From NCBI GenBank assembly GCA_024636585.1, contig JAGXGS010000025.1, positions 1 through 64,000 of the forward strand: 64,000 bases of DNA, read 5' to 3'. The translations under genes and the position numbers were made by a program. This stretch comes from Thiogranum sp. (GTDB taxonomy: Bacteria > Pseudomonadota > Gammaproteobacteria > DSM-19610). The notes beneath the pieces are model-generated. The model saw only the letters and a program-made list of their open reading frames with translations, was not told where the DNA came from and did not search any database. Positions 33,867 to 47,609 of the stretch are shown piece after piece; positions within the stretch are counted from its first letter, which is position 1; each line of letters starts with the position of its first letter.

Positions 33867-34115
33867 ATGCGATATCAACAACTGGGTCTTCTGTCCGTGC
33901 TGGGTCTGCCGGCATTCGCAAGCGCCCATGTGGGACAGCACAGCAGCATGACTCTGGCTGAACAGCTCGTGCACGCAGCGGCTCAGCCTGCTGCACTGAT
34001 TGTGGCGGGCGCCATTGTGGCCGGTCTGCTGCTGTCGAAAAACATCCGCACCCGGCGCAGCGCCAGCCGGCTGCGCAGTCGCGACGAGGTCCGCCGGCCG
34101 GAGCACCGGAGATGA
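33867..34115 (+). CDS. Small exported one-helix protein coupled to the persulfide dioxygenase-like gene
   Basis: The 82-residue product has a signal-like N-terminus (MRYQQLGLLSVLGLPAFASAH). A short His-containing segment HVGQHSSM, one membrane helix (about residues 38-58) and a basic tail follow. Its stop overlaps the start of the next gene by 4 bp, so the two are probably translated together. No family is recognised. It could tether or assist the sulfur hydrolase at the membrane, but only gene order supports this. Confidence 0.65.
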   Translation: MRYQQLGLLSVLGLPAFASAHVGQHSSMTLAEQLVHAAAQPAALIVAGAIVAGLLLSKNIRTRRSASRLRSRDEVRRPEHRR

Positions 34116-35509
34116 TCTTCAAGCAGTTCTACGAGCCAAGCCTGGGACATGCCTCCTACCTGATCGGCTCAGAACAGACTGGAGAAGCCCTGGTGCTCGA
34201 CGTGCGTCGGGACGTGGATGATTACTACGATTTTGCCCGCGAACAGGGCCTGCGTATTGCCTATGCGGCGGACACTCATCAGCACAACGATTACCTGACC
34301 GGCATCACCGAGCTGGAAACGCGCTCGCCGCTGGAACTGCTGTCCGGCGCACGCGCCGAACTGGGTTATCAGTCGCGCCCGCTGGAAGACCGCGAACGCC
34401 TCAGCATGGGCGAAATAGAATTCGAGACCCTGCATACACCGGGGCATACGCCGGAGCACATCAGTCTGCTGGTGCGCGACAGGACCCGCGGCGAGGAACC
34501 GGTAATGCTGCTGTCGGGGGGTGCGCTGCTGGTGGCGGACGTGGCGCGTCCCGATCTGCTTGGCGACGAGGCCGAAAAGCGCAGGAACGCCAAATCCATG
34601 TGCAAAACCCTGAAGGAAAAAATCCTGCCGCTGCCCGATCATGTGCTGGTGTTTCCTACCCACGTGGCCGGTTCACTCTGCGGTGGCAACATCGGCAGCA
34701 TGCTGGTGACCACCATCGGCTATGAACGCAAGCTCAACGACATGCTGGTAGCCATTGGTAATGAGCAGGACTTCGAAGATCGCTGCCTCGACCTCGGCCC
34801 GTTGCCGACCGTACCACCCTACTGGCGGCGCATGCGCAAGCAAAACCAGGACGGTCCGGCGCGTCTCGACACGCTGGCGGAACCGCCGGCGTTGCAGCCA
34901 GCCGAGTTTGCGCGACGCATTTCCGAAGGTGCAGTGGTGGTCGATTGCCGCGCGCCGGAAGCTTTCGCAGGCGCTCATATTCCCGGTTCGTTGAATGTTG
35001 GCGCCGGCACTTCCTTTCCTACCTGGGCTGGTTCGGTGGTGCCCGATGAGGCGGACATTCTGCTGGTGGTAGACGATCCCGGTCAGCTCTGGGGCATCTA
35101 CTGGAAGCTGCTGCGCATCGGCTATCGGGAACCGGTCGGATGGCTGGCGGGCGGCATGCGTGCCTGGCGGACCGCCGCGCAACCGCTGGGCTCATTGCCA
35201 CAGTGGACGCCGAAGGAACTGGAAACGCGCCGCCGCGAAAATAACGGCCTGTACATTCTGGACGTCCGGCAACCGGCGGAGTGGCATGCCGGACACGTGC
35301 CCCAGGCACACCATATTTCGGGTTCCGAACTGCCCGGGCGCATCGATGATGTGCCCAAAGACCAGCCGATCGCCGTGTACTGCGGCAGCGGCTATCGCTC
35401 ATCGGTAGCGGCCAGCCTGCTGCGTCGCACCGGCCACCGCAATGTCTACAACGTCATTGGAGGCTTCACCGCCTGGGAGGCGGAACAGCTCCCGGTTGAA
35501 GGCCGCTGA
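34112..35509 (+). CDS. Metallo-beta-lactamase fold / double rhodanese protein (persulfide dioxygenase-like)
   Basis: The 465-residue fusion has an N-terminal ETHE1-like hydrolase domain (about 1-240). Its metal motif reads THQHNDYLTG (His56, His58, Asp60), with HTPGHTPEH (His112) further on. The usual second His of HxHxDH is Tyr here, as in a known HxHNDY subgroup. Two rhodanese domains follow. The first (about 265-355) has no Cys in its active loop (VVDDPGQLWG) and is probably inactive. The second has CGSGYRSS with Cys424. A role in oxidising glutathione persulfide and moving sulfane sulfur is likely. An AF1514-like gene follows. Confidence 0.9.
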   Translation: MIFKQFYEPSLGHASYLIGSEQTGEALVLDVRRDVDDYYDFAREQGLRIAYAADTHQHNDYLTGITELETRSPLELLSGARAELGYQSRPLEDRERLSMGEIEFETLHTPGHTPEHISLLVRDRTRGEEPVMLLSGGALLVADVARPDLLGDEAEKRRNAKSMCKTLKEKILPLPDHVLVFPTHVAGSLCGGNIGSMLVTTIGYERKLNDMLVAIGNEQDFEDRCLDLGPLPTVPPYWRRMRKQNQDGPARLDTLAEPPALQPAEFARRISEGAVVVDCRAPEAFAGAHIPGSLNVGAGTSFPTWAGSVVPDEADILLVVDDPGQLWGIYWKLLRIGYREPVGWLAGGMRAWRTAAQPLGSLPQWTPKELETRRRENNGLYILDVRQPAEWHAGHVPQAHHISGSELPGRIDDVPKDQPIAVYCGSGYRSSVAASLLRRTGHRNVYNVIGGFTAWEAEQLPVEGR

Positions 35510-35978: not shown

Positions 35979-38516
35979 GTGGCATCTCCCGCGCTTTATG
36001 ATCGCCTGATTCTGAAACACCCCGGTGTCGTGCTGCTCGTGGTTGCGCTGGTAATCGCGTTCGCGGGCTGGCACGCCAGCGATTTCCGCCTCGATGCATC
36101 GGCGGATTCACTGGTTCTGGAAGAGGACGCGACGTTACGCTACTACCGCGCGATCCGCGCCCGCTATGGATCAGACGATTTTCTGATCGTCACTTATACG
36201 CCCGAAGCGCCGCTGTTCGATGCCGCCACCCTGGACGACCTGCAGCAGCTGCGTGACCAGCTGGCCGGGCTCGAACATGTCGAGTCCGTTACCAGCATTC
36301 TGGATGTTCCGCTGATCCGCAGTCCGCCGGTATCGCTGGCCGAGCTGCGCGAAAATACCCCGACACTGGAAAGTGACACGACCGACCGGGCGCTGGCGCG
36401 CCGCGAACTGCTGAACAGTCCGCTGTACCGCAACCTGTTGATCAGCCCGGACGGCAGCACCACGGCACTGCAGGTTAATCCACAGCGCGACCCGGAATAC
36501 CAGCGGCTGCTGGAGCGGCGCAGCGTCCTGCGCGAACAGCGCCTGAAGGAAAGTCTGTCGCCGCAGCAGCGCCGCGAACTTGCGCAGGTGTCGCAGCAGC
36601 TGCAACGGCGCAGTAGCAGTATGCAGGGAGCGCTGCGCAAGGATGTGCAGCGCATTCGTGACATCATGGGCCAACATCGTGACCAGGCCGAACTGCATTT
36701 AGGCGGCGTGCCCATGATAGTCGCTGATTCGATTGGCTACATTCGCCATGACCTGCTGATGTTCGGGGCCGGCGTATTTGTTTTCCTGGTGGGCATACTC
36801 GCCATCGCATTCCGAAAACCGCGCTGGGTGATACTGCCGTTGCTGACCTGCGCCGCCAGCGGCATCATCATGACCGGCCTGCTCGGCCTGCTCGATTGGC
36901 CCGTTACTGTGGTGTCAGCGAACTTTCTTCCCCTGCTGCTGATTATCACCCTGTCATTAACTATCCACCTGCTGGTCCGCTACCGCGAACTGCACACGCA
37001 GCACCCGGACGCGAGTCAATACCAGCTGGTGCATGATGCCGTGCATAGCAAGGTGCGCCCCAGTTTTTATACCGCCATCACCACCATGGCGGCGTTCAGT
37101 TCGCTGCTGTTCAGCGATGTGCGCCCGGTGATCGATTTCGGCTGGATGATGACGCTGGGCGTCGCCATTGCCTTCCTGCTGGCGTTCACGCTGTTTCCCT
37201 GCGCGGCGCTGTTTTTCACACCTGGACAACCGCGCGCCCGGCGTGACCTGGTGCATGCGCTGACCGGTCGCTTGGCGCAACTGATCGACCGGCATGGCAA
37301 TGCCACACTTGCGGCGTTCGCAGCGCTGGCTGTGTTCAGTGCTACGGGCATCAGCTTTCTTACGGTGGAAAATCGCTTCATCGATTATTTCAAGGAATCA
37401 ACTGAAATTCACCAGGGCATGAAACTCATCGATCGCAAGCTCGGCGGCACCACGCCGCTGGACGTGATCGTGGATGCGCCGGCCGGTTTCGAAGCTACCG
37501 CTCCAGGCGCGACGGAAGATCCCTTTGCAGAAGATCCGTTCGCGTCCGGTCCGGGCGCGGGGGCCGGCAGCGGCGGCGGCATTACCGCCACCAGCTACTG
37601 GTTCAATCCGTCCAGGCTCGATCAGGTAGCTGCCATGCATGAGGACATCGATCAACTCGATGCCACGGGCAAGGTACTTTCCATCGCCACTACCATGCGC
37701 ATGCTGCGTCAGCTCGAAGACCAGGAGTCCATTGACAGTTTTTTCCTGTCTATCCTGTACCGGCGCCTTCCGGAGTCGATCCGGGAGCGATTATTCAAAC
37801 CCTATATGTCAGAGGATGGCAATCAGCTGCGGTTCGCGGTACGCGTGTTCGAAACGCAGCCGGGTCTCGACCGCGATCGCCTCCTCAACAATATCCGTCA
37901 ACTGCTGATCGAGGAACACGGCCTGAATCCGGCACAGATCCATCTGACCGGCATGCTGGTGCTTTACAACAACGTGCTGCACAGTCTGTTCCGATCGCAG
38001 ATCCTGACGCTTGGGGCGGTGTTCCTCGCCATCCTGCTGATGTTTGTCGTCCTGTTTCGAAATCTTCAGCTGGCACTGGTCGCCATCATCCCGAATCTGT
38101 TCGCCGCGGGACTGGTGCTGGGTCTGATGGGCTGGCTGGCGGTTCCGCTGGACCTGATGACCATCACTATCGCAGCAATCAGCATCGGCATCGCGGTAGA
38201 CGACACGATTCACTATGTGCACCGCTATCGACGTGAATTCCGCAAGGACCGTGACTACCACGCCGCCGTGACCCGCGCGCATGCCAGCATTGGCAGAGCA
38301 CTGTTCTACACGACCTTGACAATAACCCTGGGATTCTCGATTCTGGCACTGTCGAATTTTGTGCCTACGATCTACTTTGGCGTGTTTACCGGGATAGCCA
38401 TGGTGGCGGCGCTGGTTGCAGACCTGACACTGTTGCCACTGTTGATTGTCCGCTTCCAGCCGCTCGGGCAGCCCGGCCTGATGCGCACTACCCCCGCGTG
38501 CGAGACATCGATATGA
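35979..38516 (+). CDS. MMPL/RND family exporter
   Basis: The 845-residue inner-membrane protein has two halves, each with one helix, a large periplasmic loop and five more helices, as in MMPL and HpnN-type RND proteins. It begins from a GTG. Helix segments such as NFLPLLLIITLSLTIHLLVRYRE and IAAISIGIAVDDTIHYVHRYRRE carry the intramembrane polar residues of the family. The second loop contains an odd low-complexity stretch (about 505-535) with repeated EDPFA units and Gly. It overlaps the MlaC-like gene by 4 bp. The pair resembles the HpnN/HpnM arrangement, so export of a lipid or hydrophobic molecule is likely. Confidence 0.9.
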   Translation: MASPALYDRLILKHPGVVLLVVALVIAFAGWHASDFRLDASADSLVLEEDATLRYYRAIRARYGSDDFLIVTYTPEAPLFDAATLDDLQQLRDQLAGLEHVESVTSILDVPLIRSPPVSLAELRENTPTLESDTTDRALARRELLNSPLYRNLLISPDGSTTALQVNPQRDPEYQRLLERRSVLREQRLKESLSPQQRRELAQVSQQLQRRSSSMQGALRKDVQRIRDIMGQHRDQAELHLGGVPMIVADSIGYIRHDLLMFGAGVFVFLVGILAIAFRKPRWVILPLLTCAASGIIMTGLLGLLDWPVTVVSANFLPLLLIITLSLTIHLLVRYRELHTQHPDASQYQLVHDAVHSKVRPSFYTAITTMAAFSSLLFSDVRPVIDFGWMMTLGVAIAFLLAFTLFPCAALFFTPGQPRARRDLVHALTGRLAQLIDRHGNATLAAFAALAVFSATGISFLTVENRFIDYFKESTEIHQGMKLIDRKLGGTTPLDVIVDAPAGFEATAPGATEDPFAEDPFASGPGAGAGSGGGITATSYWFNPSRLDQVAAMHEDIDQLDATGKVLSIATTMRMLRQLEDQESIDSFFLSILYRRLPESIRERLFKPYMSEDGNQLRFAVRVFETQPGLDRDRLLNNIRQLLIEEHGLNPAQIHLTGMLVLYNNVLHSLFRSQILTLGAVFLAILLMFVVLFRNLQLALVAIIPNLFAAGLVLGLMGWLAVPLDLMTITIAAISIGIAVDDTIHYVHRYRREFRKDRDYHAAVTRAHASIGRALFYTTLTITLGFSILALSNFVPTIYFGVFTGIAMVAALVADLTLLPLLIVRFQPLGQPGLMRTTPACETSI

Positions 38517-39133
38517 AAACGTTTTTCATTCCCCTGTGCACCCTGTTCCTGCTGGCCGGCTGGCTGATCGGCGGCGTCGCCGCACCCCAGGACGCGGAGG
38601 CCCTGATGCGTGATATCACCGACAACATAATTTCCCGGCTCGAGGCGGAGCCGGAACTGCGCGAAGACCGCGCTGCGCTGGTCGACCTGATCGAAGCGGA
38701 AGTGTTTCCACACGTCGATTTTGAACGCGTCGCACGCCTCACGCTGGGTCGCCACTGGCCACAGGCAAACGCGACACAGCAGGCGCAATTCGTCGATAAG
38801 ATGAAAATCATACTCGTCTGCACGTATTCCGCAGCATTCGCCGCCTACTCCGATCAGCAGGTTGAATATCTCGATCCGCGCTGGTCAGAAGACCGGGATC
38901 ATATCGAGATTCCGGTACGCATTATGTCGAGCGGCGAACCGCCGGTTCCGGTCAAATACCGGCTGCACCTGAATGACGGCGCGTGGAAGGTCTATGATAT
39001 ATTGGTAGAAGGTGTGAGCCTGGTAGCTAACTACCGCTCCACTTTTCGACAGAAACTCAGGGAGCAGGATCTTGATGCGCTGATCGCCGATCTCGGCAAG
39101 CGCAGCGCAGAGACCTGCAAGCGGGACAGCTAA
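38513..39133 (+). CDS. MlaC-like periplasmic lipid-binding protein
   Basis: The 206-residue product has a signal peptide (about 1-24). The MlaC/Ttg2D/HpnM fold is marked by EVFPHVDFERVARLTLGRHWPQANATQQAQF, and the C-terminal part contains GAWKVYDILVEGVSLVANYRSTF. These proteins carry phospholipids or related molecules across the periplasm. I chose the ATG at 38513, which overlaps the exporter stop (ATGA) and starts the signal peptide directly. Here the partner is an MMPL exporter rather than an MlaFEDB complex. Confidence 0.92.
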   Translation: MKTFFIPLCTLFLLAGWLIGGVAAPQDAEALMRDITDNIISRLEAEPELREDRAALVDLIEAEVFPHVDFERVARLTLGRHWPQANATQQAQFVDKMKIILVCTYSAAFAAYSDQQVEYLDPRWSEDRDHIEIPVRIMSSGEPPVPVKYRLHLNDGAWKVYDILVEGVSLVANYRSTFRQKLREQDLDALIADLGKRSAETCKRDS

Positions 39134-39148
39134 AAAATTTTTATTAAA

Positions 39149-39165
39149 AAAGGAGAAAAATAATA
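39149..39165 (+). promoter_or_regulatory. Strong ribosome binding site in an AT-rich leader
   Basis: Between the MlaC-like gene and the cytochrome-porin gene lies a 32-base AT-rich leader with AAAAAATTTTT and then AAAAAAGGAG. The AAGGAG core sits about ten bases before the ATG at 39166. The low GC content is unlike the surroundings and should keep the start site unstructured, favouring strong translation. Confidence 0.6.
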
Positions 39166-40455
39166 ATGCCGATCCAGCTTCGATTCGTGATCCACGCCGT
39201 ACTGCTCAGTATCTGTCTGTTGCCCGGCCTGTTGCCGGTCACGGCCGAGGCGGCTCCCATGTTCGCACGCAAATACAATATGAGCTGTGCGTCCTGCCAT
39301 TCGGCGTTTCCGCGACTGAACAGCTTCGGAGAACAGTTCCGCGCCAGTAACATGCGTTTGCCAAACTGGCGCGACGACACCCTGGAAACCGGAGATCCAC
39401 GGCTGGCGCTGCCGTCAGCCGTGCCGCTGGCGATTCGCGCCCAGGCCTACGTCCAGGCTCGTGAGGGTAAATCCATTGATCCGGTTACCGGTGATACCGT
39501 TGAGGCAAGCTCCGATTTCCAGTCACCTTACCTGATCAAGCTGTTATCCAGCGCGCCACTCAGTGACCACATCACCTATTACTTCTACGGCATCTTTGCC
39601 GAGAAAGGCGGCAATGGCGAGACAATCATTGAAGATGCCTGGTTCCGGCATGACGACGTGTTCGCCACCGGGGTCGGCTTGCAACTCGGCCAGTTCCAGG
39701 TCTCTGACCTGATGTTTCCGCGCGAAGTCCGCCTGCCGTTCCAGGACTTCATGGTCTATCGCATGGCCGGCATCACCTATGACCGGGGCGTACTGTTCGA
39801 CCGCGGGATCGGGGGCCTCGATGTCTCGCTGGGTCTGGTCAACGGCAACGGGATAGACCAGAACTTCGACGTAAACAGTCCAGGCTATCGGCGCCCCGAC
39901 AACATGTTCGATAACAACAGCGACAAAAGTGTGTTTGGACGCATCGCCACGACACTGGGACCGGTGTCGGTCGGCCTGTTCGGACTTGCCGGTGAACAGG
40001 CCAACGCAACCGGTCCGGCCGGTATCGACAGCGGTGACCGAGATACCGACAAACGTATCGTCGGGCTGGATTTATCGGGCACTCTGCGTGGCAAGACCCA
40101 CTGGTATACGCAGCTTCTCTGGAACACCTGGGAAGGTTTTCTCGAGCCGGACCAGGACTACGACTGGTGGGGCGGATTCGCAGGCGTGGATTACATCTTC
40201 AATGATTTCTGGGCATTTTCCGCCCTGTACAATTATGCAGACGCCGATGATCTGGATGCTACCGACACGATCTATGAAGGCATCGATATCAACAGCCTTT
40301 CATTCACTGCGTCCTATTACTTCATGCGCAATGTGAAAGGCGTCGCCGAAATCAACATCGACCTGCTGGATGACGAGTCCAGAAGCGGAACCTACTACAC
40401 CGGACACCTGGACCGCGAAGGCTATATTTTGTTCGGCTTTGATGCGGCATTCTAG
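39166..40455 (+). CDS. Monoheme cytochrome c-porin fusion, Cyc2-like
   Basis: The 429-residue product has a signal peptide (about 1-30). A single heme site C-A-S-C-H (Cys41, Cys44, His45) sits within FARKYNMSCASCHSAFPRLNSFGEQF, and a long beta-barrel ends in FGFDAAF. The N-terminal motif (FAR..., CxxCH, FPRLN.FG..F) and overall size resemble Cyc2-type outer-membrane cytochrome-porins that pass electrons through the outer membrane. Related porin-like cytochromes also occur outside iron oxidisers, so iron oxidation cannot be claimed. It follows the MMPL/MlaC-like pair by 32 bp and may be in the same operon. Confidence 0.8.
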   Translation: MPIQLRFVIHAVLLSICLLPGLLPVTAEAAPMFARKYNMSCASCHSAFPRLNSFGEQFRASNMRLPNWRDDTLETGDPRLALPSAVPLAIRAQAYVQAREGKSIDPVTGDTVEASSDFQSPYLIKLLSSAPLSDHITYYFYGIFAEKGGNGETIIEDAWFRHDDVFATGVGLQLGQFQVSDLMFPREVRLPFQDFMVYRMAGITYDRGVLFDRGIGGLDVSLGLVNGNGIDQNFDVNSPGYRRPDNMFDNNSDKSVFGRIATTLGPVSVGLFGLAGEQANATGPAGIDSGDRDTDKRIVGLDLSGTLRGKTHWYTQLLWNTWEGFLEPDQDYDWWGGFAGVDYIFNDFWAFSALYNYADADDLDATDTIYEGIDINSLSFTASYYFMRNVKGVAEINIDLLDDESRSGTYYTGHLDREGYILFGFDAAF

Positions 40456-42599: not shown

Positions 42600-42753
42600 T
42601 TAGTATCTCATCGTAGATTATGCCAATGGACCGATGTTCAGCATAACGCCGGGCGGGTCTTGCGCACTGACAAATATCAATGACGCTCAGCTCCGGCTTG
42701 CGGAGACTTTCCGCTCTGGAATAAATGGCGCACCGGCAGGCCGGATGGCAGTT

Positions 42754-43182
42754 ATGGAAGGTTTCACACCAGTATTATCAAGTATCGGCGGCATTCTGAT
42801 CGGACTGGCCGCGGTAGCCCTGCTGCTTGTCAACGGCCGCATTGCCGGGATCAGCGGTATCACTGCCGGGGTGCTGCATCCGACCCAGGGCAATACCCTG
42901 TGGCGGGTAGTATTCCTGGGCGGCATGCTGGTCGGCGCCATGCTGATCCGCTGGTTGCATCCCGAGGCGCTGGCAATACGCATCGATGTGTCCAACGCGG
43001 CAGTACTGCTAGGTGGATTTCTGGTCGGCATCGGCACCCGCATCGGCAATGGCTGCACCAGCGGTCACGGCGTCTGCGGGGTGGGTCGACTGGCGCCCCG
43101 CTCCATGGTCGCCAGTGCCGTGTTTTTCAGCGTAGCAGTGTTTACCAGCTGGTTGATACGCCATGTCACAGGAGGGTTCTAG
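42754..43182 (+). CDS. YeeE/YedE family half-transporter (PmpA-like)
   Basis: The 142-residue membrane protein has four to five helices and the diagnostic motif RIGNGCTSGHGVCGVGRL near residue 95. Its cysteine is thought to relay thiosulfate- or sulfide-derived sulfur in this family. I chose the ATG at 42754 because relatives begin with ME.FTP; in-frame starts further upstream exist (42745, 42634). The next gene supplies the second half, with its ATG right after this stop. Together they form a two-part channel as in PmpAB. Confidence 0.88.
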   Translation: MEGFTPVLSSIGGILIGLAAVALLLVNGRIAGISGITAGVLHPTQGNTLWRVVFLGGMLVGAMLIRWLHPEALAIRIDVSNAAVLLGGFLVGIGTRIGNGCTSGHGVCGVGRLAPRSMVASAVFFSVAVFTSWLIRHVTGGF

Positions 43183-43635
43183 ATGAAATACCTCGCAATA
43201 TTTTCTTCCGGCCTGCTATTCGCAGTCGGGCTGGGCGTTTCGGGTATGACGCTGCCGCAAAAGGTTATCGGCTTTCTCGACTTCAGTGGTGAAAACTGGG
43301 ACCCGAGCCTCGGCCTCGTCATGATCACTTCCGCGGGCGTTTTCATGTTGCTGCACCGCCGGGTCCTGCGGCGTCCGACGCCGCTGTTCGATACCGATTT
43401 CCACGTGCCGACGCGCAACGATATCGACGGGCCACTGGTGTTCGGCTCGATCTTGTTCGGCATCGGCTGGGGCATGGTAGGTTTCTGTCCCGGTCCCACC
43501 GTCACTGCACTGGTTTCAGGTCAGACGCAGGTCTGGATTTTTTTTGTAGCGATGGTCGCAGGGATGTATGCCGAAGGCAGCCTGGCGGTCAGCAATCGGT
43601 TGCTCACGCAGCGCGGAGACACAGTCGATGGATAA
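43183..43635 (+). CDS. YeeE/YedE family half-transporter (PmpB-like)
   Basis: The 150-residue partner of the preceding protein has the motif GWGMVGFCPGPTVTAL, the second conserved cysteine region of the YeeE/YedE fold, and an N-terminal GLLFAVGLGVSGMTLPQKVIGFLD. It overlaps the downstream hydrolase gene by 8 bp. In the bigR operons of plant-associated bacteria, such membrane proteins accompany a persulfide-oxidising hydrolase. The same grouping is seen here, without a visible BigR regulator. Confidence 0.9.
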   Translation: MKYLAIFSSGLLFAVGLGVSGMTLPQKVIGFLDFSGENWDPSLGLVMITSAGVFMLLHRRVLRRPTPLFDTDFHVPTRNDIDGPLVFGSILFGIGWGMVGFCPGPTVTALVSGQTQVWIFFVAMVAGMYAEGSLAVSNRLLTQRGDTVDG

Positions 43636-44368
43636 GAGTCAGGCAATACAACGTCACACACTGGAGCACGAGTTTCAGGAACTGACCACGAACGTCCGTT
43701 CGCTGAAACTCGGGGACATGGACAATCTGGTCTACCTGATCGAAGAACCGGATACCGGCTGCGCGGCAGTTCTCGACCCTGCCTGGGACGTCGAAGCGAT
43801 ACTGGACGCGGCAGGCGATACAGTCATTACCGATATCCTGATCTCGCACTGGCACGATGATCATCTCAATGGCGTCGAGGAACTGGTGGCGGCAACCGGT
43901 GCGCCAGTGCATCTACTGGACAGCGAAGCGGCGTTCTGGGAAGTCGACAAAGACTACTTTGTACGCCATGCCGACGGCGAATGTATTGCGCTTGGCGGAG
44001 TCGGCATCCAGGTCCTGCACACGCCGGGGCATTCGCCCGGTTCGGCCTGCTTCAACGTCAATGGAAAGCTGTTCACCGGGGGTACGATGTTTATTTACGG
44101 TTGCGGGCGCTGCGATATGCCGGGTGGCGACGCGATTGCCCTGTATCACAGTCTGAATCGGCTGACTAAAATGTTTCCGCCGGAAACGCTGGTGTATCCC
44201 GGCCATGATTATGCACGCAAACAGGTGTCGACGCTCGGCGAACAGATACGCCTGAACCCATTCCTGCATCAGCCATCCGCAGAAGCTTTCGCGGCCTTCC
44301 GTGCCGCACACGACGAACACCGGCAGCCGCCCTACCAGCCGGTGTTGCGCGGAGATCCGGTCTGGTAG
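43628..44368 (+). CDS. MBL-fold hydrolase, persulfide dioxygenase-like (Blh/ETHE1-type)
   Basis: The 246-residue protein has the metal motif SHWHDDHLNG, the second ligand region HTPGHSPGSACF and the GCGRCDMPGGD segment common to ETHE1/GloB relatives. Its third histidine lies in VYPGHDY. I chose the ATG at 43628, which overlaps the PmpB-like gene end; the frame extends upstream without a good start. It probably oxidises persulfide sulfur or hydrolyses a glutathione thioester. The PmpAB-like neighbours favour the sulfur role. Confidence 0.88.
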   Translation: MDKSQAIQRHTLEHEFQELTTNVRSLKLGDMDNLVYLIEEPDTGCAAVLDPAWDVEAILDAAGDTVITDILISHWHDDHLNGVEELVAATGAPVHLLDSEAAFWEVDKDYFVRHADGECIALGGVGIQVLHTPGHSPGSACFNVNGKLFTGGTMFIYGCGRCDMPGGDAIALYHSLNRLTKMFPPETLVYPGHDYARKQVSTLGEQIRLNPFLHQPSAEAFAAFRAAHDEHRQPPYQPVLRGDPVW

Positions 44369-44372
44369 CCGT

Positions 44373-45897
44373 TTACGCAGCGTCAAACGGCCACAACAGC
44401 GGGACCACCGTCGCAATCACCAATAACGTGAGCACTGCCATGCCACTCCCGAACCGCAGGTAGTCGCTGCTCCGGTAACCACCGGAACCGCGCACCAGCA
44501 GCGGAGCCGGATGACCGGCTGGAAGCAGTACACTCATGGACGCCGCGACCAGCACTGCCACCGCGACGCTCTTCGGATTGACGCCAAGCTGCGCGGCGGC
44601 ATCCAGCGCCACCGGCATCATCACGGCTGCGACCGCGGCGTTGTGCAGTGCCTGGGTGAGCGCAAGCGCGATACCCGCTACCGCCATCATTACCGCCAGC
44701 GGACCCCAGTGCCCGAGTCCGTCGGTGAGCCAGGCGGCCAGATCTGCGGAGGCACCAGTGATATTCAGCGCGGTCGCGAACGGCAACATCGCCGCAATCA
44801 ACACCAGGGTACTCCAGTCGATCCGGGCATAGGCGCGATCCGCCTCCAGTGCGCCGATCAGCGTTACGGCAAGCGCCCCCGCCAATGCGGTCACAGCTAC
44901 AGGAAACCAGTCGAGCGCAGCGGTCACGATCACCAGCACAAAAATCAGCACCGTCCAGGGAGCCAGACGTCGCACCTTCGCAGGGGCCGCGGCCTTGCGC
45001 GGCGGCCGCAGCCAGTGCCTCGACACGATCACGGCGCCCCCCCAGCAGCAGTACGTCGCCGGCAGCGAAAACAGACGCCGGGTCCAGATGCGGTCGATGT
45101 TGATCGGCGCGTATCAGTGATATCAGGCTCAGCCCGTACTCTTCAGTGAGCCGCAGCGAGCCGACTTCGCTGCCGATCAGCGGCGAATCCGATAGTACTT
45201 CGAGCTCCCATACACGTTCGGAAAAAGCGTAGCGCCGGATCAGCTCACGCGTCTGGTCGCTCTGACCCTCGCCGCCCTCCACGTCGTGCGCCGGCAGCAA
45301 CCAGCGTGCGGTAGCCAGCGAATAGACAGTTGCCATAGCAATCATCACCAGCCCGAGCGGCGCGAACTCAAAAAATCCGAATGCCTCGCCAGTGCGTTGC
45401 TGAAGGATGTCATTGACGACAAGATTGTGTGAAGCACCTATCAGGGTGAGATTTGCCCCTGCCATGGCGACGTAGGCCATCGGCAGTAACAGATGTGCCG
45501 GCGATTGCCGCGCCTTGAGCGCCAGCCTCAGTAATACCGGGATGAACACCGACACAGTCGCGATGATATTGATCACACCCGATAGCAGGGCCGGAGCCAA
45601 AGTACCCGCCAATAACATGCGTGTTTGACTTTTCCCCGCCAGCCGATGCAAACCATCGGCAATCCAGCGCACCACACCGCTGCGCTCGATCGCGGCACCC
45701 AGCACCAGCAGCGAAGCAATCGCGATGACGGCAGGACTGGAAAAGCCGGCCAGCGCATCACCCGGATTGATAGTTCCCGCCAGTACCAGGGCGAGCAATC
45801 CGCCCAGGGCAGCGGCATCCGGCCTCACGCGGTCACTGATGAACAGAATCACAACGCCGCCGAGCACCAGCCACACGATGGCAGCTTCTAACTCCAC
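44373..45897 (-). pseudogene. SLC13-type permease with TrkA-C domains, frameshifted
   Basis: Two reading frames together make one DASS/SLC13 anion permease. The 5' part (45897 to about 45030, likely GTG start after GAGGGT) encodes the first helices, with FISDRVRPDAAALGGLLAL. It goes on to a soluble TrkA-C segment ending DVLLLGGRRDRVEAL. The 3' part (about 45030 to 44373) is in another frame and encodes the remaining helices, from RRLAPWTVLIFV to PLLWPFDAA. The shift lies between the C7 run at 45037-45043 and about 44985. It may be a true mutation or a homopolymer/GC sequencing error. The first frame stays open to 44383 by chance. Confidence 0.8.
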
Positions 45898-46024
45898 GAT
45901 ACAGGTACCCTCAGACGCGCACGTCGCACCGGATCGATGCAACTGCGCTTTGCGAGCAGCCTAACTCGTGACACCTGCCGCGCATTGTCAAATGTCAATG
46001 CAAGCGGCGTTCTCCGGGAACCGG

Positions 46025-47389
46025 CTACTCAGCCAGCGTCAGTCCGCTCGGGACGGCTCTGGGAACGTCATTGCGTAGATCCAGACTCCGCGGATCGGTG
46101 AGCGCACTGAGAAAATCAAGAATGCGATCCACCTCCACATCACTGTAATTCATTGGTGCCAGTTCCGTATACGCCGCCAGAGCAGCAACCCGTGCCGGGT
46201 TATCCATCAGGATGAAGTCCAGCGCATCGAGATCGGCGCGGGAAGGCAGCACCGCCTGTGACTTGTCATAGCTGGTGACAGCTGTCACGCAATTCAGATG
46301 ATGTTCGACCACTGCCCGCAAGCTGTTATATGCACCGCTGTGACCGTAAGGCGCTGTCAGCGAGACATTCCGCAAGGTCGGCGTACGGAACTTGTAGCGG
46401 TCATTGATATCGCCGGTTACCTGCTCCCGTCCGAAGTCATCACGGCCATCGAAATCACTGCCTCGACCGGCGCCGATCTGCGGCATGGCAATCGCGTGGA
46501 AGCTGTGATCGGTCTGGAAGCGACCGCTGTGGCAGCTGCTACAGCTGTTGCCATTACCGTTTTGGCCATAGAAAAGTTTCATGCCGTCGATCGCGTCCTT
46601 GCTCATCGCCTGAGCATTGCCGCGCAGATAGCGGTCGAATGGACTGTCGTCGGCGCGCCAGGCCACACGTTCAAAAGCGGATATTGCGTTGGCGGCATGG
46701 GCAAAAGTGATATCCGCGGCCGAATTCACGTCATCGAAAGCATCGATGAACAACGTTACGTAGCCAGGAATCGACTGGAGGCGATGAGCCAGCTGTTCCC
46801 ATACGCCGCCGGGACCTGCCAGATTGCCGACTGCCGCGGCATCGGCAACCGGATTCTCGCCTGCCTGGCCCGCCATTTCAGTTGCGGAGGTCACCGGGAA
46901 CATGGCCTGGGCGGCGAGCACATTTTCGAGCGTCAGCGGCAAATCATCGCCGGCGGGGGATAAAAATCCGCTCAACTGCGTCGGATCGACAGCGACGCGC
47001 CCGTCGTGGAACAGTACTTCAAATTCCCGGGCGCCGAGATTAAAAACCGGAGGTGCATTGCGCGGCACCCGCTCATGGATGCCGTCCGCTCCGGTTCCGA
47101 CATCGCGGGTTATCCCAAGACCGCGGCCACCCTCTCCCACCGGCAAAGACAGACCATCGCCGGTGCCGCTCAGCGAATGATGACAGCTGGCACAGGATAT
47201 GTTTCGGTTGCCACTAAGAATCTTGTCGAACATCAGCAGCTTGCCAAGCTCGACCCTGGCGGACGCGGGCGCACCGTCATCGTGAAAATCCGAGTCGGAT
47301 AGCGGCTCCATTTTCGCGGCCATGGCATTCGCAGCAATCAGCAGCAGACCCGGCAGCACCCAGCCAGTGAGAGTTTTTCTTGCAGACAT
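46025..47389 (-). CDS. Diheme cytochrome c peroxidase / MauG-like protein
   Basis: The 454-residue periplasmic protein has a signal peptide (about 1-24). Heme sites are CASCH (Cys66, Cys69, His70) and CSSCH (Cys283, Cys286, His287), with the family segments GKLLMFDKILSGN and FRTPTLRNVSLTAPYGHSG. It should reduce peroxide or carry out a MauG-like oxidation. I chose the ATG at 47389, preceded by GGGGAA, because the signal peptide starts there; the open frame extends to 47434. It is divergent from a secreted HbpS-like gene, and the two may share regulation. Confidence 0.9.
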   Translation of the reverse strand: MSARKTLTGWVLPGLLLIAANAMAAKMEPLSDSDFHDDGAPASARVELGKLLMFDKILSGNRNISCASCHHSLSGTGDGLSLPVGEGGRGLGITRDVGTGADGIHERVPRNAPPVFNLGAREFEVLFHDGRVAVDPTQLSGFLSPAGDDLPLTLENVLAAQAMFPVTSATEMAGQAGENPVADAAAVGNLAGPGGVWEQLAHRLQSIPGYVTLFIDAFDDVNSAADITFAHAANAISAFERVAWRADDSPFDRYLRGNAQAMSKDAIDGMKLFYGQNGNGNSCSSCHSGRFQTDHSFHAIAMPQIGAGRGSDFDGRDDFGREQVTGDINDRYKFRTPTLRNVSLTAPYGHSGAYNSLRAVVEHHLNCVTAVTSYDKSQAVLPSRADLDALDFILMDNPARVAALAAYTELAPMNYSDVEVDRILDFLSALTDPRSLDLRNDVPRAVPSGLTLAE

Positions 47390-47609
47390 TTTGATTTTCC
47401 CCACAGGCTGCTGAAGCAACCTCTTGTTCGTCAACAGTTATATGTTCGGCAGCTTCTCCGGCTGCGGTTTTCTTACCCGTTCTTTTGTGTGGGAAGGATA
47501 CCCGGCCATCGGCTGTCAATCAAGTACAGCTTGCGCCATTCTAAATCACACGATGGATATATACTTACTGAAGTTGCTGCGACCATCTGACACCCGGAGG
47601 AATTGCATT

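Follow-up and report, generated by a model that had tools for sequence, protein, structure and literature searches.

A Cyc2-type fused cytochrome-porin of a distinct, conserved clade in Thiogranum sp.

The window (the whole stretch of 64,000 nucleotides of Thiogranum sp. analysed here) carries a gene for a monoheme c-type cytochrome fused to a predicted 16-stranded outer-membrane barrel. Judged from its sequence and a structure model, the protein is a member of the known Cyc2 family and belongs there to a distinct clade. We think it probable that this clade represents a cytochrome-porin from the Cluster 3 side of Cyc2, in which Fe2+ or a small donor would reduce the heme and the electron would pass to a periplasmic cytochrome. 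An initial annotation, made from the DNA letters, had described a Cyc2-like monoheme cytochrome with an outer-membrane barrel, and this description is supported by the motif, the length, the model, a profile match and a tree.

The gene and its heme motif

The open reading frame starts with ATG and encodes 429 amino acids (Table 1). The span first given to it, 39134 to 40455, was right at its end and not at its start, as 39134 is the first base past the MlaC stop codon and the ATG lies at 39166. The AT-rich ribosome site was found again, as AAGGAG within an AT-rich leader. A single CxxCH behind a signal-peptide-like N-terminus had also been described and is present as CASCH in the context AAPMFARKYNMSCASCHSAFPRLNSFGEQF, and the barrel ending in Phe was confirmed within the 429 residues, with FDAAF as the C-terminus and 16 strands modelled. 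Cleavage of the signal peptide is likely after AEA, and in the alignment of relatives this is the least conserved segment, with a mean majority-residue fraction of 0.38. The mature part is acidic (56 D+E vs 31 K+R).

Table 1. Features of the cytochrome-porin gene and the two genes upstream of it, in window positions.
Feature	Position	Strand	Basis or remark
MMPL/RND transporter	35979..38516	+	PF03176, 2.6e-41; context
MlaC-family periplasmic protein	38498..39133	+	PF05494, 5e-50; stop 32 bp before cytochrome ATG
Ribosome-binding site AAGGAG	39150..39155	+	10 nt before ATG; read in sequence
Cyc2-type fused cytochrome-porin gene	39166..40455	+	ORF; 80 relatives; 16-strand model
Putative signal peptide, residues 1-29	39166..39252	+	Hydrophobic core, AEA preceding conserved P.FAR motif
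Heme domain, residues 29-66	39250..39363	+	AXPXFAR[QK][TY]..CXXCH...PXL; residues invariant in 48 relatives
CASCH heme-attachment site, residues 41-45	39286..39300	+	Sole CxxCH of the cytochrome-porin
Predicted barrel, residues 89-429	39430..40452	+	16 predicted strands (AlphaFold), Foldseek porin matches, Phe end
Putative loop 3 equivalent, residues 179-204, SDLMFPREVRLPFQDFMVYRMAG	39700..39777	+	Loop naming from the strand order of the model

Cyc2 has been defined by AXPXFAR[Q/K][T/Y] before CXXCH, PXL after it, a porin domain and a minimum length of 365 residues; the AXPXFAR[Q/K][T/Y] motif has been called unique to Cyc2 (PMC8406198). In the window protein AAPMFARKY is followed by NMS and then by CASCH, and CASCH is followed by SAF and PRL, which places PXL 4 residues past the single CXXCH. 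The length of 429 amino acids lies above the floor of 365, and the predicted model has a 16-stranded barrel fused to the heme domain. Homology extends beyond the motif: a profile-profile comparison (hhalign) with Gallionellaceae Cyc2 aligned 127 columns with a probability of 98.1 and an E-value of 1e-13. This match spans columns 13-142, that is the heme domain and the first strands, and ends there.

Curated families contributed little, with one weak OMP_b-brl match below the cut-off in Pfam and none in NCBIfam. A PDB sequence search with the window protein gave no match, and tblastn against plasmids gave only a weak 65-residue match.

Structure model

A structure model, proposed in the initial annotation as a check on the barrel, was computed with AlphaFold from a 48-sequence alignment. 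It has 16 predicted strands (pLDDT 80, pTM 0.80), and in the PDB it resembles porins most: Foldseek matched it to OmpU, Omp-Pst1/2, Omp32, OmpF/OmpC and, at rank 31, OprP, with E-values of 1e-11 to 1e-13. A canonical Gallionellaceae Cyc2 modelled likewise had a lower pLDDT of 65 and matched porins including OprP and OprO. The Cyc2 of PV-1 has been described as 16-stranded and OprP-like, and OprP served as structural analogue of Cyc2 (PMC8406198).

By model comparison, the general porins OmpU, OmpF/OmpC, Omp32 and OprP share the 16-strand barrel, whereas they are without a heme domain and have about 10-15% sequence identity to the window protein. Their likeness to the barrel would also suit an ordinary solute porin that carries CxxCH by chance and has no redox chemistry. 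We regard this as very improbable, since CxxCH, P.FAR and P.LN vary hardly or not at all among 48 relatives (effective number 38) and homology links the heme domain to the one in canonical Cyc2.

Relatives and conservation

Scanning about 85,000 species genomes turned up 80 relatives with 47-76% identity, most of them matching over the full length, so that the clade counts at least 80 sequences. Their hosts are Gammaproteobacteria nearly throughout, including Thiogranum and Thiohalobacter MAGs, Woeseiaceae and many vent and sediment MAGs. The clade is also found in isolates, namely Thiohalobacter thiocyanaticus, Thiohalophilus thiocyanatoxydans, Rhodanobacter lindaniclasticus, Microbulbifer and Haliea. 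A few relatives come from MAGs labelled Gallionellaceae, Arcobacter, Persephonella or Bdellovibrionales, and binning errors may lie behind some of these members.

Across 48 members 77 alignment columns are invariant, including P31, F33, R35, C41, C44, H45, P49, L51 and N52. The 80 relatives together with these columns rule out a chance open reading frame. The mean column identity of the barrel is 64% in the window clade vs 39% in canonical Cyc2, in alignments that differ in breadth. Loop 3 is the best-conserved long loop, with a mean majority-residue fraction of 0.87 vs 0.58 for loops 1 and 8. In general porins loop 3 is the constriction loop, and its strong conservation here is as expected if loop 3 were the substrate site.

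A divergent paralogue (L123) was seen in the genome of the Hainich gammaproteobacterium that also holds the relative L092. It carries SPHFTRQYEISCAVCHSAGPKLN, lies at the edge of the clade on a branch of 0.89, and has the same IRTQAYAR.R.G.YIDP.SG stretch as the window clade.

Position among Cyc2 types

Two families supplied the canonical anchors of the tree. One is that to which a genome labelled Gallionellaceae belongs, with Cyc2-type matches in 42 of 60 genomes. The other is a family of the same phylum, f73, which we infer to be Zetaproteobacteria; nearly all of its sampled genomes with a match have one or two Cyc2 types. Rusticyanin (TIGR03095), sought as an Acidithiobacillus anchor for Cluster 2, gave nothing above the cut-off in 398 genomes of the phylum. 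The group called Cluster-2-like is presumed to be so solely by its CHVGGFGPQL signature.

The careful tree holds the window clade and the divergent paralogue L123 together at 100/100 on a branch of 1.65. Next to this clade stands a sequence of the same genus (L012), followed at 99/93 by the second f73 type (FARKYGM.C.SCHTMFPKL); Cluster 1 and the Cluster-2-like group lie elsewhere in the tree. The window clade does not group with the Cluster 1 Cyc2 of Gallionellaceae and f73, from which it is separate in two trees. When it was forced to join Cluster 1, the p-AU was 0.032; for the Cluster-2-like group the value was 0.05. On these two values, and in a tree where Cluster 3 is anchored by the presumed second type of Zetaproteobacteria and not by a named Leptospirillum or Siderophilus sequence, the Cluster 3 side is favoured for the window clade and not proven. 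The tree, like the model, had been suggested in the initial annotation, and neither gave the result named there as refuting: the model has 16 predicted strands that match porins, and the tree places the protein among Cyc2 types and not in a separate porin family without electron transfer.

Cluster 3 has been considered the part of the Cyc2 family with the least certain function (PMC8406198). Cluster 3 cyc2 has been published from other gammaproteobacterial autotrophs, among them the organism that dominates an Fe(II)-oxidising, nitrate-reducing enrichment (PMC10993476), and MAGs of Gammaproteobacteria from sulfide deposits have Cluster 2/3 cyc2 (PMC11427306).

Comparison with known systems

The closest known system is Cluster 3 Cyc2, as in the second copy of Zetaproteobacteria, Cyt572 of Leptospirillum and gammaproteobacterial MAGs such as Ca. 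Siderophilus nitratireducens. Shared with it are the FARKY...CH.xFPKL form of the motif, the single heme, the fused 16-strand barrel and hosts that are sulfur or iron autotrophs. The window clade differs in being long and tight, in having N.RLPNW behind the motif, and in a far more conserved barrel. Cluster 1 (Mariprofundus, Gallionellaceae, Chlorobium) likewise has the N-terminal AxPxFAR, CxxCH and PxL, one heme and a porin-like 16-strand barrel, but reads FARQTG and is longer by one residue in CHxQxFP.

MtrAB, MtoAB and PioAB also carry out barrel-mediated electron transfer across the outer membrane, through decaheme cytochromes that are proteins of their own, set in a barrel of 26 strands. 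The window protein, having one heme in one polypeptide, lacks the multiheme cytochrome and separate porin of MtrCAB and MtoAB.

Gene neighbourhood

The MMPL/MlaC pair named as context in the initial annotation is indeed present upstream (PF03176, PF05494), but it does not hold as functional context, as it accompanies none of the 80 relatives. Genes for MMPL, MlaC and TrkA/TrkH are absent near all 80, within flanks of up to 10 kb on each side that are shorter at contig ends. The MlaC of the window is at best 40% identical to homologues in the genus, so the pair itself appears to be accessory. This neighbourhood is peculiar to the window genome and uninformative on function.

The tandem arrangement of the three genes, with 32 bp between MlaC and cytochrome genes that could thus be co-transcribed, might still suggest that the protein, its heme being incidental, serves MMPL/RND and MlaC as the outer-membrane component of lipid transport. 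We find this hardly credible, given the lack of MMPL/MlaC near any relative, the lack of a close orthologue of MlaC in the genus, and a heme site that is invariant among the aligned relatives. An MMPL-MlaC-barrel lipid-transport operon was rejected, as 0 of 80 relatives show the arrangement.

The cytochrome-porin gene usually stands alone, with neighbours that vary by genome and none conserved throughout the clade. Neither cyc1 nor another iron-oxidation operon was found beside the window gene. The sole recurrent direct partner is a small predicted secreted protein. Its gene immediately follows the cytochrome-porin gene in 17 of 80 loci, and the protein matches SHOCT in Pfam weakly, under the cut-off. 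In L036 (11250-11804) and 16 other loci this protein has a conserved PSAAEV.LIGG.AG.TPL and a SHOCT-like tail. As raw counts, two-component genes were found near 10 loci and RND pumps near 9, within several kilobases.

None of the main open reading frames of the window has more than two CxxCH. The other c-type cytochrome of the window is a diheme cytochrome c peroxidase/MauG-type protein at 46025-47434 (-), matching PF03150. A beta-lactamase-fold/rhodanese fusion lies at 34112-35509, and at 42634-44368 (+) two small genes, the first a Sulf_transp gene (PF04143), adjoin a metallo-beta-lactamase gene. Together these are consistent with a sulfur-handling neighbourhood and with dsrA elsewhere in the genome. 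A CitMHS/SLC13-type transporter gene at 44373-45942 (-) has an apparent frameshift near 45000: PF03600 is matched by its N-terminal half, and what looks like the C-terminal half of a transporter is read in another frame of the same strand (ORF 44373-45032). It appears to be a pseudogene or an assembly error.

Host genome and genus

One copy of the cytochrome-porin was found in the host genome (2.6 Mb, 83% complete). Searches by family, from which all statements on the content of this genome are taken, gave RuBisCO, two ccoN (cbb3 oxidases), dsrA and 16 cytochrome c domain matches. The host is therefore a probable sulfur-oxidising autotroph, and the RuBisCO, the two cbb3 oxidases, dsrA and the many c-type cytochromes mean that an electron sink exists.

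The window clade is present in 4 of the 17 genomes of the genus (G000-G016). A Cluster-2-like Cyc2 was found in 3 others, another type in 1, and no Cyc2 in 9; these counts come from a search with the window protein, which may overlook distant types, and several of the genomes are incomplete. At this search sensitivity none of the 17 genomes has two Cyc2 types together. The types look mutually exclusive between species of the genus, and such a distribution suggests a pattern of gain and loss.

Proposed function

Our proposal starts from what was computed, namely the gene, its heme site and motif, the predicted 16 strands, the family membership and the oxidases, RuBisCO and cytochromes of the genome. 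The protein would be located in the outer membrane, with its small N-terminal c-type heme domain loaded and plugging the periplasmic end of the 16-stranded barrel. A small soluble donor, most likely Fe2+, would enter the barrel from outside, pass the conserved loop 3 constriction and reduce the heme. The electron would then flow inwards to a periplasmic c-type cytochrome as partner, and from there reach a cbb3 oxidase or enter a reverse chain. Electron transfer of this kind would supply a sulfur-oxidising autotroph with an additional electron donor or an alternative one.

Several observations count against this proposal: no iron-oxidation operon is adjacent, only 4 of the 17 genomes of the genus have the clade, and Cluster 3 is where function in the family is least certain. 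Microbulbifer, Haliea and Rhodanobacter are known as heterotrophs and not as iron oxidisers. With isolates of these genera carrying the clade and a barrel that is unusually conserved, another substrate is possible, and conservation beyond that of canonical Cyc2 could point to a different, specific function. The clade might thus keep the Cyc2 architecture for another job, acting on another metal ion or an electron-carrying molecule in detoxification or signalling and not in iron energy metabolism. We consider this conceivable, if on the unlikely side. It would agree with the long-branched, tight clade apart from canonical Cyc2 (branch 1.65, 100/100), with its presence in the heterotroph isolates, with the unusual conservation of barrel and loop 3, and with the two-component system or heavy-metal-type RND pump near some relatives. 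However, the clade agrees with Cyc2 throughout its heme motif, chemolithotroph lineages supply many members, and neighbours vary, none being conserved throughout the clade. Unlikely as well is a distinct cytochrome-porin, widespread in Gammaproteobacteria including heterotrophs, whose substrate would be other than respiratory Fe(II) and whose loop 3 constriction would form a specific site. A Cyc2 cytochrome-porin of the Cluster 3 side remains our preferred reading.

The Cyc2 family and gammaproteobacterial Cluster 3 cyc2 were known already, and the architecture found here is no new kind of system. Cyc2 is a marker gene for microbial iron oxidation. As the clade is large and tightly conserved, is encoded by a standalone gene and occurs in isolates, it offers a practical test of what Cluster 3 Cyc2 means. 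The question it puts is whether Cluster 3 Cyc2 stands for iron oxidation, or whether surveys based on this marker are over-counting iron oxidisers.
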